From NCBI RefSeq assembly GCF_000374045.1, contig NZ_KB893317.1:1-64000 (forward strand): DNA of 64,000 bases, written 5' to 3'. A program made the position numbers and the translations under genes. Shown in pieces: positions 1 to 61,217 of the stretch. Origin of the DNA: Segetibacter koreensis DSM 18137 (GTDB taxonomy: Bacteria > Bacteroidota > Bacteroidia > Chitinophagales > Chitinophagaceae). The first letter of the stretch is position 1. Each line of letters begins with the position of its first letter. The notes below the pieces were generated by a model. It was not told the origin of the DNA. It ran no database searches and saw only the letters and a list, made by a program, of their open reading frames with translations.

Positions 1-174
1 TAAGGCAACATGAGTAATGTCTTGTTGCTGTAGCCATGCCTTTAAAGACAAAAGTTCAACTGTAGTAGCACCAAAAGTCTTGATTTGTCGCTCAACCCCT
101 TGACGCATAATACAGGCTGTAACAGAGGCCTGATGCACATCAAGCCCGCAAGCTTTGATAACATCGCTTCTCAT
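1..174 (-). CDS. IS110-family transposase, N-terminal part (cut by window edge)
   Basis: The reading frame starts at the ATG complementary to 172-174 and runs off the window's left edge after 58 codons. The N-terminus contains GLDVHQASVTACIM, the hallmark of the RuvC-like DEDD domain of IS110 transposases; the Asp at residue 12 would be the first catalytic acid. IS110 enzymes are recombinases that use a seek-and-join mechanism guided by a bridge RNA from the element's own non-coding end. Here the transposase reads away from a structured non-coding stretch (about 230-355), which is the arrangement of the IS110 subgroup, in which the RNA precedes the gene. Whether the gene is complete cannot be judged because most of it lies outside the window. 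Confidence 0.85.
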   Translation of the reverse strand, partial: MRSDVIKACGLDVHQASVTACIMRQGVERQIKTFGATTVELLSLKAWLQQQDITHVAL

Positions 175-229
175 AATAATAAACTTTTAAATAAAATTAA
201 AATGATTATAAACAGCCTCACAATTTTCA

Positions 230-355
230 TTCAGTAAAGTGAGCGCCGCTCATGGATATTTCATCGGCATCGACCACGACTTCGGAGTAAGGGCGGCTGA
301 CGCGGTTGTGATACAACCGTACATCTGGCCGATTGCCGGTACGTGGCAATCTTCT
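230..355 (-). ncRNA. Candidate IS110 bridge RNA (structured 5' non-coding end)
   Basis: Upstream of the transposase start is a GC-richer stretch in AT-rich surroundings with successive stem-loops. They are GCCGC at 245-249 with GCGGC at 293-297, a perfect 7-bp stem 303-309/313-319 (CGGTTGT / ACAACCG), and a perfect 7-bp stem 331-337/345-351 (GATTGCC / GGCAATC). No convincing protein is encoded there. In IS621 and relatives a bridge RNA of this kind is transcribed with the transposase from the left end and carries target- and donor-binding loops. The RNA limits given here are estimates, and the loops have not been matched to any target. Confidence 0.55.
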
Positions 356-521
356 AGTTTTAGCTCTATCTTTCTTCGATTCGCATTACTCAGTCTCTAT
401 TTTATTTATGACTCGATAAAGTCTGTTCTGTTTTTAAATTAGTAACGTAGGCGCAGGAAGTCAGAAACTGACAGAACATAGCATTTTCCACCTTTTCTTT
501 GGACTTTTCAAGTTTTCATTT

Positions 522-899
522 TCAATTATTGAAGTCTTTGAAATTTTTATATAGTTGCTTTTCAACTTTTTATTTCTTGCACAGGGATAATGTATACCAT
601 CTGAAATTTTGTCCAGTTTTATCATGGTCTGAATACAGTTTAATCTGTTCATATTTTTCATAAAATCACCGCTTTTTCGAGCAAACACAAAGGGCCTAAA
701 ACAACTTAATTTGCCTCAACGTCGAGAGAATTTTTTGCATTATAATGAAAGAAAGGATGTCAAAAAATCCTTCAAGAACCATAGCTTCCTTTGCTGCAAT
801 ATTGAATGATCTGATGTCTTTCGGAATACTACTAACTGCTTTGCTGTATTAGTTGCTAATTGATAACCTCCCGCATCATTTTTAATATTTCTTACCATT
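522..899 (-). pseudogene. Decayed Toprim-domain primase/mobilisation protein
   Basis: Read on the minus strand, three blocks typical of the Toprim proteins of Bacteroidota mobile elements survive in different frames. They are KNDAGGYQL near 860-886, VLEGFFDILSFIIMQK near 730-780 (the EGFxDxLS Toprim block), and QIKLYSDHDKTGQNF near 600-640 (the DxDxxG-type metal-binding block, seen as DHDKTG). These are followed by LYKNFKDFNN and a stop at 522-524, where relatives usually continue with Trp. Stops and frameshifts separate the blocks, so no intact product is possible. The remnant abuts the IS110 end, which suggests that an older mobilisable element was interrupted by, or decayed next to, the insertion sequence. 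Family assignment rests on remembered motifs, not a search. Confidence 0.6.
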
Positions 900-1134
900 C
901 AATTTAGACCGTGTTTTTTTAAAATGTACTTTCGCAAGTCTCCTGGAAATTCGTCACCCGTTGAAGGTTCAAGGGCGAACGATGAAAGATTTTTTTATAA
1001 AAATTGAAATCTGTTTTACCTGTTTTCGTTAGTTCTTTTAGGGTTAATTTAGACTGGCGGGTGAAAGAAAAAAGCACGTTTAATTCTGCAGAAAATCTCC
1101 TGCGTAGCTGTTGAAATACGGGATAGAGAATTAA

Positions 1135-1245
1135 TCAAAATTTCAACTTTTCTAATCCCATAGTCATACCCAGCCATTCACCTTCCCATTGCTTTAAATG
1201 AGGGGTTTTTTCACTAGCAAGGGGGATAAATACCGGTAGCCCACA
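1135..1245 (-). pseudogene. Short protein-like remnant, family unknown
   Basis: One minus-strand frame reads a protein-like stretch with several Trp and Gly residues (HLKQWEGEWLGMTMGLEKLKF) ending at a TGA at 1135-1137. An upstream piece with coding-like composition sits in another frame. No start codon or intact frame is present and I do not recognise the family. Treat it as possible debris of the same decayed element as the Toprim remnant. The rest of 900-1600 shows no supportable gene. Confidence 0.25.
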
Positions 1246-2579: not shown

Positions 2580-2709
2580 TGATGGTAGCCCCTGCAGCGA
2601 ATACCTTTCGAGTAGCTTCTTGTAACTACCACTATTCGAATATGTTAATCTGGCAGAGAGGCTGTTGGCAGCATACTTTTTGTGTTATAAAACCCTTAAA
2701 ATTAGTAAT

Positions 2710-3657
2710 ATGTCGGAATATCGAAACAGACATCTTGATTGTGTTTTAAAGTCCCATAATATTGAGAACAATGAGGATTTGATGACCGCTTATCGTAATA
2801 AAAGAGGTAAGGTGCGGGAAGATTTAAAAAAGAAGTTTGAAGGCGAGATATATCAGATTCTCCATTCCGGCTCTTACAAGAAATTTACTGCCGTAAATAT
2901 TAAATTCGATATGGATCTTGTAGTTCCCTTTTCAAAAGATGAAGCCGATGCTCTAGAGAAGATCTATAATGATTTGTATAAATACTACGATACGGAATAC
3001 AGAAAAAAAGACACGTCGCTATTAGAAGTAAAAGCGCAAAAGGTAGCTATAGGACTAACTTTTTTTGTGGATGGAAAACTACTCGATCTGGATATAGTTC
3101 CAGGAAGAGAAATAAATGATTATGAAAAAGATGGGGATCTTAATTTGTTTGTGAACGACAGGCGCAACGGGAACAGTAAGGCTACGACACTTAAGACTAA
3201 TATTGAAAAACAGATTGATAATATTAGGAATAACTCTGTAGCACGAGAAACAATAAAGCTTTTTAAAATTTGGAAGCGCCGCAATAATGGACAAATAAAA
3301 TCTTTTGTTATAGAGCTTATTGTAATTAAAGCACTTGAAGGATATGCAGGTGCATCGGATAGATGGTCAAAATTAAAGCATGTGCTTACCTACATTAGAG
3401 ACAACATTAAGACTGTCCGTTTAGTTGATCCGGGAAACACTAATAATATTGTAAGCGACTCCCTTGAAGATTTTCAAAAAAACTCCATTTCTGAAACCAG
3501 CAAGTGGATGTTGGAAGACTTGGAGAAAAATGAGAAATCTATTGAACGGTATTTTCCTGTAAATACTGAATACCCCTGTAAGGAAGAAAATAAAAGCGCG
3601 TATATTATTGGCGCCAGCAAAAAACCTGATCAATTAAACGACGAAGACTTTGGATAA
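2710..3657 (+). CDS. CBASS CD-NTase (cGAS/DncV-like nucleotidyltransferase)
   Basis: This 315-residue protein should synthesise a cyclic di- or oligonucleotide alarm signal on phage infection. The nucleotidyltransferase core is visible: GS at 54-55 (HSGSYKKFTAVN), the metal-binding pair D67 and D69 (FDMDLVV), and a third Asp at about 128 (LLDLDIVPG). A helical C-terminal half includes IKLFKIWKRRN and VRLVDPGNTNN, common in CBASS cyclases. I chose the ATG at 2710 because the 15 residues upstream of it look non-coding. The protein ends in DEDFG; a C-terminal Gly is what a Cap2 enzyme would activate and conjugate. The stop overlaps the next gene by 8 bases. The clade and the nucleotide product cannot be assigned by eye. 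Confidence 0.9.
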   Translation: MSEYRNRHLDCVLKSHNIENNEDLMTAYRNKRGKVREDLKKKFEGEIYQILHSGSYKKFTAVNIKFDMDLVVPFSKDEADALEKIYNDLYKYYDTEYRKKDTSLLEVKAQKVAIGLTFFVDGKLLDLDIVPGREINDYEKDGDLNLFVNDRRNGNSKATTLKTNIEKQIDNIRNNSVARETIKLFKIWKRRNNGQIKSFVIELIVIKALEGYAGASDRWSKLKHVLTYIRDNIKTVRLVDPGNTNNIVSDSLEDFQKNSISETSKWMLEDLEKNEKSIERYFPVNTEYPCKEENKSAYIIGASKKPDQLNDEDFG

Positions 3658-5278
3658 TGATGATCTGCTTTTAATCAACCAGATTTTGCAGGCAACCTCG
3701 TGGATTAAGGTAACGAAAGAGGTTGCCAGACTAGAGTCGGGTGTAGGTGTTGCGGAGTTTCATATCCCAACTTCAAAAGAAACGCTAATTGTTAATGTGT
3801 TAATCTCGCCGGACTTTCCCTTGCAAGGGTTAATGTTTGTATGTACAAATATTTCAGGTTATAATCACCAGATGCATAACGGCAATCTTTGTCTAGTTGC
3901 AGCCCCAGCCGCAACAATTGCAGATAGATTGACACTAGAATTAGAAAAGCTTCAAAGATGGGTGGAAAAATATTACATTAATGAAGAATCCGATGAACAC
4001 TATGAATACCTGACATTTAATAACCCTCAGCCAATTCCCTTTATTTTCGACGAGGATAGATTTAAGTCGCCCATCGTTCGTGATTATGGAAGTTTTACCT
4101 ATGGTATACTCCAAGAGTATCAAAACAATGGGACCACTTCTGCATCCTACATTGTTCGAAATCTCGGCAATAGAGAAAGCAGGTGGTCGGAAAGTTTTAA
4201 AAAGAATGCTATCAAAGGTACATATGCAGGACTGTGGGTTAAATTAAACCAGCCACCCGTTATTTCGAGACGGCAAACAATAGAGGAATGGGTCGACCTC
4301 CTCAACTTATTCAATGCCTCGCAGATGACCGCCCTTTATGAAGCCTCTCTCAATTTTAAAAAAATTTCTGCTTTTAGTGATGGTTTTATTCTGGCGGTTG
4401 GTTATGATGTTCCGATAAATAATGATACCGAGGTTCATTGGGAGACTATATACGTAAAATATGAAAGCTTTCCCGTTGAAGTAATAAATCAAAAATTTCA
4501 TCTACGCCTGGGCGCCGAGAAGACGATTCAGTGGTGTCAAACCTCAAATGCTAGCTACGAGAGAATGTTTGGAAGGGGGAAGCTTGGAAAACAACTGACA
4601 GACAAAAAAATACTCATAATTGGAGTGGGAGCTATTGGAAGTTGTTTCTTTAAAGCTCTTATTCGGGGTGGCTGTCGAAATATTACAATAAGTGACGGAG
4701 ACCTTGTTGAACCGGGAAATGTTTGCCGTGCGGCACTTGACTTTACAAACTGCTACGCTTCAAAAGTATTCCACTTGTACAAACAGGGTATCGAAATCTC
4801 TCCCTTCACTGAAATAGAAATGTTGAACAATATTGAGCCAGTTCGTAAAGAGCATAAACTTTACCAAGAATTAAAAGCCAAATTAAGCAATTACGATTTT
4901 ATTTTTGATTGCAGTACGGACAAATATCTTTCGATAATGTTGGATGAGATGGGAATTCCTGGACAAATTATTAATCTTTCAATCACGGACGAAGCAAAAG
5001 ATTTAGCTGTAGTCACGGGGTATGGTAATATTCATTTGATAAAAAATGCATTATTTAATAGGATTTCAACAGGTAAGACCGAACAGTTCTTCGTAGGCAC
5101 CGGATGCTGGAGCCCGACTTTTAGAGCATCCTTTGTCGATATAAACACATTATTAATGCTTGCTTTAGCTGAAATGAACAATCGATTTAAAAAAGATATA
5201 CCGATAAATAGCTTTTTTGTGAAGAAATCACAAGTAGAAAGCCATCCTGCTACTTACTCAATTGACTATAATGTATAG
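3650..5278 (+). CDS. cap2: Cap2-like E2-E1 fusion (type II CBASS ubiquitin-like transferase)
   Basis: This 542-residue protein has an N-terminal E2-like domain, with a candidate catalytic Cys at 81 in HNGNLCLV. A linker follows, then a ThiF/E1 adenylation domain with GVGAIG at 325-330, the acidic strand ISDGDLVEPGNVCRAAL, and a candidate E1 Cys at 486 in GTGCWSPTF. Cap2 enzymes form a thioester with the CD-NTase C-terminus and attach it to targets, priming the cyclase. The only upstream in-frame start that keeps the E2 domain is the TTG at 3650, inside the end of the cyclase gene, which points to translational coupling. The next in-frame ATG (residue 62) would delete half of the E2 domain. 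It overlaps Cap3 by 8 bases. Confidence 0.9.
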   Translation: MDNDDLLLINQILQATSWIKVTKEVARLESGVGVAEFHIPTSKETLIVNVLISPDFPLQGLMFVCTNISGYNHQMHNGNLCLVAAPAATIADRLTLELEKLQRWVEKYYINEESDEHYEYLTFNNPQPIPFIFDEDRFKSPIVRDYGSFTYGILQEYQNNGTTSASYIVRNLGNRESRWSESFKKNAIKGTYAGLWVKLNQPPVISRRQTIEEWVDLLNLFNASQMTALYEASLNFKKISAFSDGFILAVGYDVPINNDTEVHWETIYVKYESFPVEVINQKFHLRLGAEKTIQWCQTSNASYERMFGRGKLGKQLTDKKILIIGVGAIGSCFFKALIRGGCRNITISDGDLVEPGNVCRAALDFTNCYASKVFHLYKQGIEISPFTEIEMLNNIEPVRKEHKLYQELKAKLSNYDFIFDCSTDKYLSIMLDEMGIPGQIINLSITDEAKDLAVVTGYGNIHLIKNALFNRISTGKTEQFFVGTGCWSPTFRASFVDINTLLMLALAEMNNRFKKDIPINSFFVKKSQVESHPATYSIDYNV

Positions 5279-5747
5279 AAGATACATTAATAGCGACGGC
5301 TTGGTCATAATGCTGCCCTACCAAATATTTGAAGAAATAAAAGTACAGGTAGCGAAATTTTATCCGGTTGAATGCGGTGGAATATTTGTCGGCAAACTAT
5401 TAGATAACAACTCCGTACTGATTGTTGAAATTATGATGCCAGAAAAGTTTAAAAGTAATCGGTTCTGGTTTTACCGTATATCTGCTTTTCTAAACAATTG
5501 GCTATCCAACGTTTTCAAAAGAAATAATGGAGAGGTAATGTATTTAGGGGAATGGCACTCTCATTGTGACGCCCCTCCTTATCCCAGCAAAAAAGACTTA
5601 GGTTCGATGATCAGAATTGCTCAAAGCGAAAATGTAAGGATACAAACACCATTGATGCTTATAGTAGCCTACGACGGAAAGAATTATAACGAGCAGTTTT
5701 ATATATTATTTGAAAACAAATTAATCCAGTATGCCAAACAAGATTGA
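5271..5747 (+). CDS. cap3: Cap3-like JAMM isopeptidase of type II CBASS
   Basis: This 158-residue JAB/Mov34 metallopeptidase has a complete JAMM motif: E34 in VECGGIF, then H96-S-H98, seven residues, S106-K-K-D109, fitting HxHx7SxxD exactly. In type II CBASS, Cap3 cleaves the CD-NTase conjugates formed by Cap2 and so holds the system in check. The ATG at 5271 is preferred over a TTG three codons upstream; it lies inside the last codons of cap2. Its own end overlaps the next gene by 17 bases, so all four genes appear to form one translationally coupled operon. Confidence 0.9.
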   Translation: MYRRYINSDGLVIMLPYQIFEEIKVQVAKFYPVECGGIFVGKLLDNNSVLIVEIMMPEKFKSNRFWFYRISAFLNNWLSNVFKRNNGEVMYLGEWHSHCDAPPYPSKKDLGSMIRIAQSENVRIQTPLMLIVAYDGKNYNEQFYILFENKLIQYAKQD

Positions 5748-6558
5748 ACTAAAACAACTATTTAATGGATTGCAGAAACAAATGTCCGCACAACTTAATA
5801 CTAACAGAGAATTTATTGAACATCCCGGTTCAAAGGGTGATTCGTTAGAAAACGCTTGGATCGAATGGTTGAGAAAATATTTGCCAAATAGATATTCAGT
5901 TGATAAAGCCATTGTAATAGATCACGAGGGTAGCATTAGCCACCAAATGGACATCGTGATATATGATAATTGGTTTACTCCATTCATTTTTTCTCAAAAC
6001 GGTTTTTATTATATACCCGCTGAAGGAGTATATGCTGTATTTGAAGTTAAGCCAGACATACAAGGTAATGTAGATAAACAAAACTATATCGAATATGCAG
6101 GGGATAAAATTGAAAGTGTTAGGGTATTAAAACGGGAAGCAGCAAGTTTTATAAACGGAGGAAAAAAATTTGATGCGCGGCCATTAACGAAAATTGTAGG
6201 AGGCATTTTAACTAGCACAAATTCTTTTTCACATAAAAACAATAACACTCTGGTGGGTCATATTCAATCTTTGCAAAACTTAAAAACTATCGACTTGGGT
6301 TGCATTGCAGATTACGGAAGTTTTTATGTTGACTATAAGCCAAATGAAGAAATCGAAAAGGTTGGGCAAGATGCTTACTTAGAGTTCTACCAAAAGAGGA
6401 AATTTAGTTCTGTTGAGTTTAGCAAACCGGAACATTCTATGGTCACATTTTTTATGCAGTTGACAAGATATCTACAACAGGCAATAGGAACAATTCCTGC
6501 AATCAATTTGAACGCGTACTTAAAAAGTATAGGTGAAGAAGTTGATGAACAAATTTAA
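5731..6558 (+). CDS. DUF6602 protein with PD-(D/E)xK-like core, probable CBASS effector
   Basis: This 275-residue cytosolic protein has no signal peptide or membrane segment. The N-terminal half matches my memory of DUF6602: GDSLENAWIEWLRKYLP, then SHQMDIVIYDN, then EGVYAVFEVKP. Read as a restriction-endonuclease fold, the acids would be E40, D74 and E105 with K107, in the order E...D...ExK. It is the last gene of the CBASS operon, in the place of an effector, and no phospholipase, STING, SAVED or pore-forming protein is encoded nearby. Its size and single-domain build recall NucC, which both binds the cyclic nucleotide and cuts DNA, but this comparison is inference. A palindromic terminator follows. 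Confidence 0.75.
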   Translation: MPNKIELKQLFNGLQKQMSAQLNTNREFIEHPGSKGDSLENAWIEWLRKYLPNRYSVDKAIVIDHEGSISHQMDIVIYDNWFTPFIFSQNGFYYIPAEGVYAVFEVKPDIQGNVDKQNYIEYAGDKIESVRVLKREAASFINGGKKFDARPLTKIVGGILTSTNSFSHKNNNTLVGHIQSLQNLKTIDLGCIADYGSFYVDYKPNEEIEKVGQDAYLEFYQKRKFSSVEFSKPEHSMVTFFMQLTRYLQQAIGTIPAINLNAYLKSIGEEVDEQI

Positions 6559-60656: not shown

Positions 60657-61217
60657 TTAATCAGAAAAATCTGTTGTTTGCTCTTCTGCAATTGTGTAAT
60701 GTAGTTGAACAAGACCTTTTTCAAATGTTTTTGAATTAATCAATTGTAGTCTTTTCTCTGGCCGGCCCTGTTTAAATAATGGAATGCCTTCACCAAGAAA
60801 AATAGGAATTATTGAAATGATAAATTCATCAATAAGATTTTGTTTCATCATTTCATGTACTACTTCTGCTCCTCCGTCTATAAATATATTTTTTCCTGCT
60901 TCTTGTTTTAAAGACAAAACCAGGTTTGTAATATTGCCTGTATAGAAAGTAATGTTTCCCGACGGCGGTTTTGCAGTGCGTGTTATAACAAAGGTTTTTT
61001 TATCAGAATGAGGAAAAGGAATACCCAAAGTCAATACTTTATCATAAGTCTTTCGACCTAAAATCACTGTATCAATCGTTTTAATAAAATCTCCGTAACC
61101 ATAATCCTGTCCTTTCTGTTCAACAATTGATAAGAAACTAATGTCATCATTTCTCTTTGCAATAAAGCCCTCTAAGCTCATTGCTATGTATAGCACAACT
61201 TTTCTGCCTGTTGCCAT
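60657..61217 (-). CDS. RibD/DHFR-like NADPH reductase
   Basis: This 186-residue protein of the dihydrofolate-reductase-like family (RibD C-terminal type) begins KVVLYIAMSLEGFIAKRNDD. It carries TVILGRKTYDKVL, FVITRTAKPPSGNI, NIFIDGGAEVVHEMMKQ and IIPIFLGEGIPLF. These are NADPH-binding reductases whose substrate is often unknown (YwjB/YyaP group). It stands alone between the TonB receptor and GMC genes, on the same strand. Confidence 0.88.
   Translation of the reverse strand: MATGRKVVLYIAMSLEGFIAKRNDDISFLSIVEQKGQDYGYGDFIKTIDTVILGRKTYDKVLTLGIPFPHSDKKTFVITRTAKPPSGNITFYTGNITNLVLSLKQEAGKNIFIDGGAEVVHEMMKQNLIDEFIISIIPIFLGEGIPLFKQGRPEKRLQLINSKTFEKGLVQLHYTIAEEQTTDFSD

Follow-up and report, generated by a model that had tools for sequence, protein, structure and literature searches.

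An IS110-family left end at a contig edge of Segetibacter koreensis, with a likely guide RNA at the opposite end of the element and putative oriT hairpins in its flank

In IS621, a member of the IS110 group of insertion sequences (IS; PMC11208160; PDB 8wt6), a two-loop RNA encoded upstream of the transposase gene, in the left end, carries guides that match the target and the donor around a common CT core, the donor being the joined right and left ends. IS1111 seekRNA elements such as ISEc11 (PMC11187229) have a long non-coding region downstream of the transposase gene, a bottom-strand match on the 3′ side and long subterminal inverted repeats; the same source mentions IS110-type elements with a downstream non-coding region and no long repeats. 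Here we describe an IS110-family element at the very start of the first 64 kb of contig NZ_KB893317.1 (C4; positions 1–64,000, referred to as the window) of Segetibacter koreensis DSM 18137, where it lies at a broken contig end of a 6.1-Mb genome (G000) assembled in 73 contigs. We consider it highly probable that an IS110-family insertion sequence present in several copies has its left end at window positions 1–262, that the guide RNA of this element is encoded at its right end, outside the window, and that the hairpins which the original prediction took for parts of a bridge RNA preceding the transposase are the inverted repeats of a putative origin of transfer (oriT) in the flank.

Like IS621, the S. 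koreensis element encodes a transposase of the same superfamily, has a two-loop RNA with guides to target and donor around a common core, and is expected to use its joined right and left ends as the donor. Unlike IS621, it carries the RNA in the right end, its lineage has the left (bottom-strand) guides on the 3′ side of both loops, and its core is GAAA, or CAAA or TAAA in some relatives. With the IS1111 seekRNA elements it shares the long downstream non-coding region and the bottom-strand match on the 3′ side, but not the long subterminal inverted repeats, and its close transposase relatives have the RNA upstream. The IS110-type elements without long repeats resemble it by description only. 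We did not find IS1111-type subterminal inverted repeats of 7–17 bp; the best inverted match, 9 nt with one mismatch, lies off the expected place and was equalled in 65 of 500 shuffles.

The original prediction correctly read a minus-strand IS110 transposase start: window positions 174–1 hold the first 58 codons (DEDD domain), truncated by the contig end, as seen in profile searches and by comparison with the copy on contig C21. The fragment alone matches PF01548 at E 0.0041, below the Pfam cut-off, and is 98% identical to the open reading frame (ORF) of the complete copy on C21. In that copy both the DEDD RuvC-like N-terminal domain (PF01548, 1.1e-27) and Transposase_20 (PF02371, 3.7e-13) are present, and the protein matches NF033542, ‘IS110 family RNA-guided transposase’, at 5.7e-67 (226 bits, cut-off 140) and IS621 in PDB (8wt6) at 1.1e-9. 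Its gene (L010, 4504–5720) has a frame change inside and is accompanied by about 85 nt of non-coding DNA on the left and about 245 nt on the right, 3′ of the gene. Comparison of left ends assigns window 175–258 (minus strand) to the left-end non-coding DNA, which is too short for the likely bridge RNA of the other end. A transposase search in 59 relatives matched seven, mostly weakly. At G000:C46:295514-295832 lies a further, diverged copy of this IS that has lost much of its transposase gene.

The boundaries of the element follow from its copies. Window 1–263 recurs at 97–100% identity on C31 (1–263), C21 (1–263), C27 (21–263) and C26 (81–263). Since the five assembled left ends (C4, C21, C31, C27 and C26) agree up to window position 263 and then run into five different flanks, the left edge lies at about 259–262, and the window from 263 rightwards is flank. 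At the other side, seven right ends (C21, C44, C68, C13, C9, C35 and C17) agree to CGGAAGAAAAGAAAA and then diverge, all of them reading CGGAAGAAA-AGAAAA ahead of the divergence. A right end at L010 5898 proved to be an artefact of the query end, the seven flanks shifting it to about 5970. One integrase gene is split in halves between C31 and C13. Its uninterrupted homologues read KDR-VK-RK-I..., e.g. GACCGGGTGAAAAGAAAGATT in L140, and as they run unbroken across the site, the target is ...RT-GAAA-AGAAAA... with the core GAAA; the left product is thus RT-GAAA-TATCC and the right product CGGAA-GAAA-AGAAAA. The same homologues rule out a TG core. In the window the core, common to target, left end and right end, occupies 259–262 (minus strand); the adjoining left-target bases CGAT (263–266, minus strand) match the guide CGGT of six right-end contigs at three of four positions. 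Just past the IS, the right-end contig C68 has a mobC match with six stops, which makes it probable that C4 and C68 flank one and the same insertion. The S. koreensis ends could be paired for C21, for C31 with C13 and, by gene content, for C4 with C68.

A likely bridge/seek-type RNA, well supported by comparative sequence evidence, lies 3′ of the transposase gene at L010:5725-5841. The S. koreensis element has it in common with L055, L059, L110, L113 and L115, where a two-domain RNA is likewise found downstream of the genes: the first domain is a GGTC...GAC stem with an inner hairpin, and in the second a stem encloses three parts, namely a conserved TAAG-AC strand, a hairpin and a GAAA-terminated strand. 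Paired cells make up 94.5% of the seven-sequence alignment, compared with 77.8% in shuffles and 24–47% in slid controls, and nine pairs have changed on both sides. We searched a covariance model of this RNA (R1) in 84 loci, comprising the best 80 of 191 relatives, three viral loci and L178. It gave 62 matches up to E 10, every one on the transposase strand; the 25 with E ≤ 0.01, five of them seeds, all adjoin an IS110 transposase, 12 downstream and 13 upstream of it. L061 and L070 each hold two IS110 transposases, and the extra matches at these loci are accounted for by the second one. In L061 the RNA match of one transposase is weak and upstream, that of the other strong and downstream. Across 54 distinct rows, in an alignment fitted to the model, 97.3% of cells pair (68.5% in shuffles) and the covariation score is 0.797 (0.225 in shuffles). 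Under stricter filters, R1 matched two of 395 genomes of the phylum, S. koreensis and one other.

The left guides of this RNA match the left flanks and the right ends of the elements that carry it. We compared the left target guide (LTG) with the left target (LT) and the left donor guide (LDG) with the left donor (LD, i.e. the right end), with core-NNNN-CATG as the left-end anchor and TTTTC-NNNN-core as the right-end anchor. On the 3′ side of the first loop, the 8-nt stretch that precedes C/T-TG is identical to the left flank as read from its anchor; the 8-nt stretch that follows the second hairpin is identical to the right end beyond TTTTC. Guide and match read ATATGAAA/ATATGAAA and AGATGAAA/AGATGAAA in L055, AACAGAAA/AACAGAAA in L059, AGAATAAA/AGAATAAA in L062 (core TAAA) and GGACCAAA/GGACCAAA in L064 (core CAAA). 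At non-core positions LTG and LT match at 58 of 64 (16 elements; shuffles 31.0) and LDG and LD at 58 of 60 (15 elements; shuffles 30.5), in both cases with none of 20,000 shuffles as high. The LTG–LT sample comprises 14 of 25 elements and two S. koreensis copies, and the LDG–LD sample 13 of 25 and the same number of copies; the other 11 and 12 elements, respectively, were dropped for a missing or unclear anchor, and some of these may be true mismatches. The crossed control LTG–LD gave 26 of 48 (shuffles 23.4; 3,924 of 20,000 as high). In the seven 5′-type elements alone the LDG–LD match remains significant (7 of 20,000). Within S. koreensis, the C21 copy has the guide CAGTGAAA, one base off that of the six other right ends (CGGTGAAA), and CAGTGAAA is also the sequence of the C21 left flank; in the other four left flanks, seven of eight positions agree with the common guide CGGTGAAA.

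On this evidence we propose that a bridge/seek-type RNA would be transcribed from the roughly 245 non-coding nt that follow the transposase gene, and that the transposase would bind it. One loop would specify the left target through the GAAA core and the second the right end (left donor) through the same core, and the complex would catalyse the joining of a circular element (CGGAA-GAAA-TATCC) to RT-GAAA-AGAAAA targets. The C4 copy, probably joined to C68, would have landed in this way beside a putative oriT upstream of mobC.

Several observations weigh against this explanation. The crossed comparison LDG–LT gave 32 of 64 non-core positions (shuffles 28.3; 2,109 of 20,000 as high) and was reached by 535 of 20,000 shuffles over the first five positions and by 513 of 20,000 over all eight, the last figure meaning that this control is not fully flat. 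In the four 5′-type elements alone the LTG–LT match is not significant (1,658 of 20,000), and in L057 the target guide matches its own flank at two of four non-core positions. Anchors were partly picked by eye and not blind. Most S. koreensis copies have no assembled interior, and of the four whose left flanks match the common guide, the RNA could be assigned for C31/C13 only. As to candidate right guides, the complementarity of the right target guide (RTG) was equalled by 307 of 5,000 shuffles for the longest run and by 566 of 5,000 for the best register, and a match for the right donor guide (RDG), looked for by eye, was not found. The outcome for the right guides would also fit a right-end RNA that has a conserved structure but no guides, serving as a 3′ leader, a terminator or a processing signal, with the protein alone picking the target. 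We consider this very improbable, since the left-guide matches track flank and right end from one element to the next, also hold for the cores CAAA and TAAA, and extend to the concordant one-base change in guide and flank of the C21 copy.

That the bridge RNA of the window IS is encoded instead in 180–470, upstream of the transposase and including the perfect stems at 303–319 and 331–351, is refuted by the element boundary, and we give it almost no credence. Both stems do exist, each with 7 bp, and related IS110 elements do have their RNA upstream (the 13 upstream matches among the 25 with E ≤ 0.01). The edge of the IS at 259–262, however, puts some 80 nt of left end and the core in 180–470, the remaining 200 nt or so being foreign flank; the stems recur upstream of mobC genes, and the well-supported RNA sits at the opposite end. 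The longer-range pairing of 245–249 with 293–297 is a genuine 5-bp complement, but it joins bases inside the IS to bases outside it; such short complements are common, with 18 inverted pairs of at least 6 nt in 480 bases. Within the left end proper, the inverted-pair list and the sequence give a small hairpin, TGAGCG-C-CGCTCA (240–252). Folding of 180–470 is barely better than that of shuffles (z −1.81; 10 of 200 as good), and the stretch matches neither Rfam at gathering thresholds nor the right-end RNA model. Over the whole window, Rfam at gathering thresholds returned tRNA only, and the right-end model one weak match inside an ORF (60709–60810, minus strand, 20.7 bits, E 0.14). The outcome named as refuting, the absence of a covariance match, is thus what 180–470 gives, while the outcome named as supporting, loops that match the element's ends and the target, is seen with the left guides of the RNA at the right end. 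The assignment to the IS110 family and to an RNA-guided class of mechanism is thus well supported, but the RNA itself had been misidentified and misplaced. Hairpins of an oriT in the flank can be mistaken for a bridge RNA if the edge of the element is not fixed.

The flank is what remains of a mobilization region. Sequence and profile searches show window 276–1239 (minus strand) to be 68% identical to a primase-to-mobC stretch on C24, and 276–996 similarly matches a stretch on C21. The order on C24 is a primase-like gene (Toprim_2, CHC2 zinc finger), the hairpin region, a MobC_2/NikA-like gene and a MobA/VirD2-like relaxase gene. A BLAST match to the hairpin region was found in 10 of 20 mobC loci; nine of these (L169 was left out) were aligned with the window, giving three regions of S. 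koreensis and seven from six other genomes. L167, found by motif, is not included, and the other nine of the 20 loci are without a BLAST match. In these ten rows, the stem 303–309/313–319 has 100% of cells paired and two of its seven pairs changed on both sides, and the stem 331–337/345–351 is kept as 6 bp, the innermost pair missing in the seven relatives with letters there. Both stems lie on the minus strand outside the IS, as does an imperfect outer stem of the putative oriT (295–302 with 323–330), seen in the alignment. The ACTCCGAAGTCGT stretch (276–289, minus strand), within which CTC-x3-A-x-TCG is invariant in all ten aligned regions, may be a nic region. Over the whole hairpin alignment 92.6% of cells pair (88.4% in shuffles, 23–50% in slid controls), and four pairs have changed on both sides against 1.5 in shuffles (10 of 500 as high); further pair types are unexceptional (64 of 500 as high).

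Two nested or adjacent inverted repeats and an invariant stretch beside mobC and relaxase genes are the usual make-up of an oriT, and conserved inverted repeats adjoin mobC and relaxase genes here. As judged from these sequence features, the flank hairpin region is probably an oriT. A regulatory or terminator structure of the mobC operon, with no oriT, would also account for hairpins directly upstream of mobC and for covariation as modest as the shuffles indicate, both for further pair types and for both-side changes; we think it unlikely given the two nested or adjacent inverted repeats and the invariant motif beside MobC/NikA-like and MobA/VirD2-like genes. The mobC homologues at G000:C24:72858, C27:33747, C4:149808 and G007:C158:247 each have exactly one in-frame TAG inside the match.

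Relatives of the element hold the same RNA either 5′ or 3′ of the transposase. On a tree of 29 transposases, of which 11 have the RNA 3′ and the other 18 have it 5′, one change suffices to explain the two positions, and shuffled labels need about nine. The support for this split (84/71) is not strong, with one change sufficing in 81% of 200 bootstrap trees, and seven of the 18 5′ labels come from weak matches (E 0.014–0.16: L067, L114, L129, L100, L084, L128 and the first L061 element). L178 was reframed for this tree, and L127 and rows without a clear RNA were left out; an earlier 55-row tree had misframed L178 and L127. The tree gives no direction of change. Further left-end-like units with the same core context, as if from earlier insertions, lie at L178:40-200 and in L054 upstream of 2426. 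Since the bridge RNA has been proposed to move between IS110 and IS1111 elements (PMC11208160, section 12) and IS110-type elements with a downstream non-coding region have been mentioned (PMC11187229), end switching as such is not new; an RNA that can be aligned across the switch and keeps its left guides in the same strands was not found in the available parts of these two sources. The same RNA at different ends makes the proposed IS110–IS1111 move directly testable, and in the circular form an end switch may amount to no more than a donor site on the opposite side of the RNA. The covariance model and the anchors together allow the targets and donors of this lineage of probable RNA-guided recombinases to be read.

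Finally, the frame change in the C21 transposase falls at GGT-A9-G, after ...NNESAGKKK (L010:5380-5421). We tabulated this site in 76 of 85 loci (L075, L085–L090 and L097, which are near-copies or second loci, and L127 were omitted). The longest A-run is at least eight in 15 of the 76, and 12 of these 15 break at the run (L010, L056, L070, L095, L100, L111, L112, L118, L124, L125, L136 and L178; L111 and L112 being copies from a single genome). L055, L092 and L115 read through in frame despite such a run. None of the other 61 loci breaks at the site; L131 and L064 break elsewhere, and L067 is cut by a contig end. Among the shifts with clear frames, nine are −1 and two +1 (the first L070 element and L136). 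In pairs broken in both members, the code past the break is as constrained as that ahead of it: the ratio of non-synonymous to synonymous differences (pN/pS) is 0.061 after and 0.080 before the break in L124–L125 (pS 0.57), 0.147 and 0.197 in L095–L111, and 0.29–0.49 and 0.34–0.43 in distant pairs, which are close to saturation for synonymous change.

This pattern suggests programmed slippage or frameshifting. The C21 copy and its broken-frame relatives may, as a real possibility, be decaying pseudogenes with a mutable A-run: A-runs mutate easily, so that repeated recent loss could occur; L127 has two further breaks, and the run length differs between the two copies in L070; the C21 copy contains an N, and the assemblies are drafts in which errors are possible; and L118, which also speaks against our overall explanation, shows no continuing frame. 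Against decay stand the confinement of breaks at this codon to runs of 8–10 As (12 of 15 versus none of 61) and the constraint past the break in pairs broken in both members. A lineage with one bridge RNA at either end, same-strand left guides and a transposase output gated by slippage or frameshifting on about nine As is a tentative picture that falls just short of being probable; under it, the A-run would separate the DEDD part from the bulk of the Transposase_20 domain.

A9 runs have been described in 27 IS elements of other hosts, with transcriptional slippage proposed (PMC1088944). As in those elements, 8–10 As would join two overlapping transposase frames here; the hosts named there are different, and ‘IS110’ is absent from the available part of that text. 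A review (PMC5009743) names IS1, IS3, IS5 and IS630, with ‘IS110’ not found in the part available, and the available part of PMC3196728 tables its two IS110 elements with one ORF. No recoded IS110 transposase turned up in a limited literature search, and this may be the first. Should the recoding prove real, a family used in genome engineering would have a further layer of control.

Near the decayed mobilization region, window 2665–6558 holds a four-gene operon resembling a cyclic-oligonucleotide-based anti-phage signalling system (CBASS), a defence operon whose genes match PADLOC models for a nucleotide cyclase (E 3.8e-80), an E1-E2 protein (2.5e-176), a JAB protein (9e-39) and a NucC-type endonuclease (1.4e-92).
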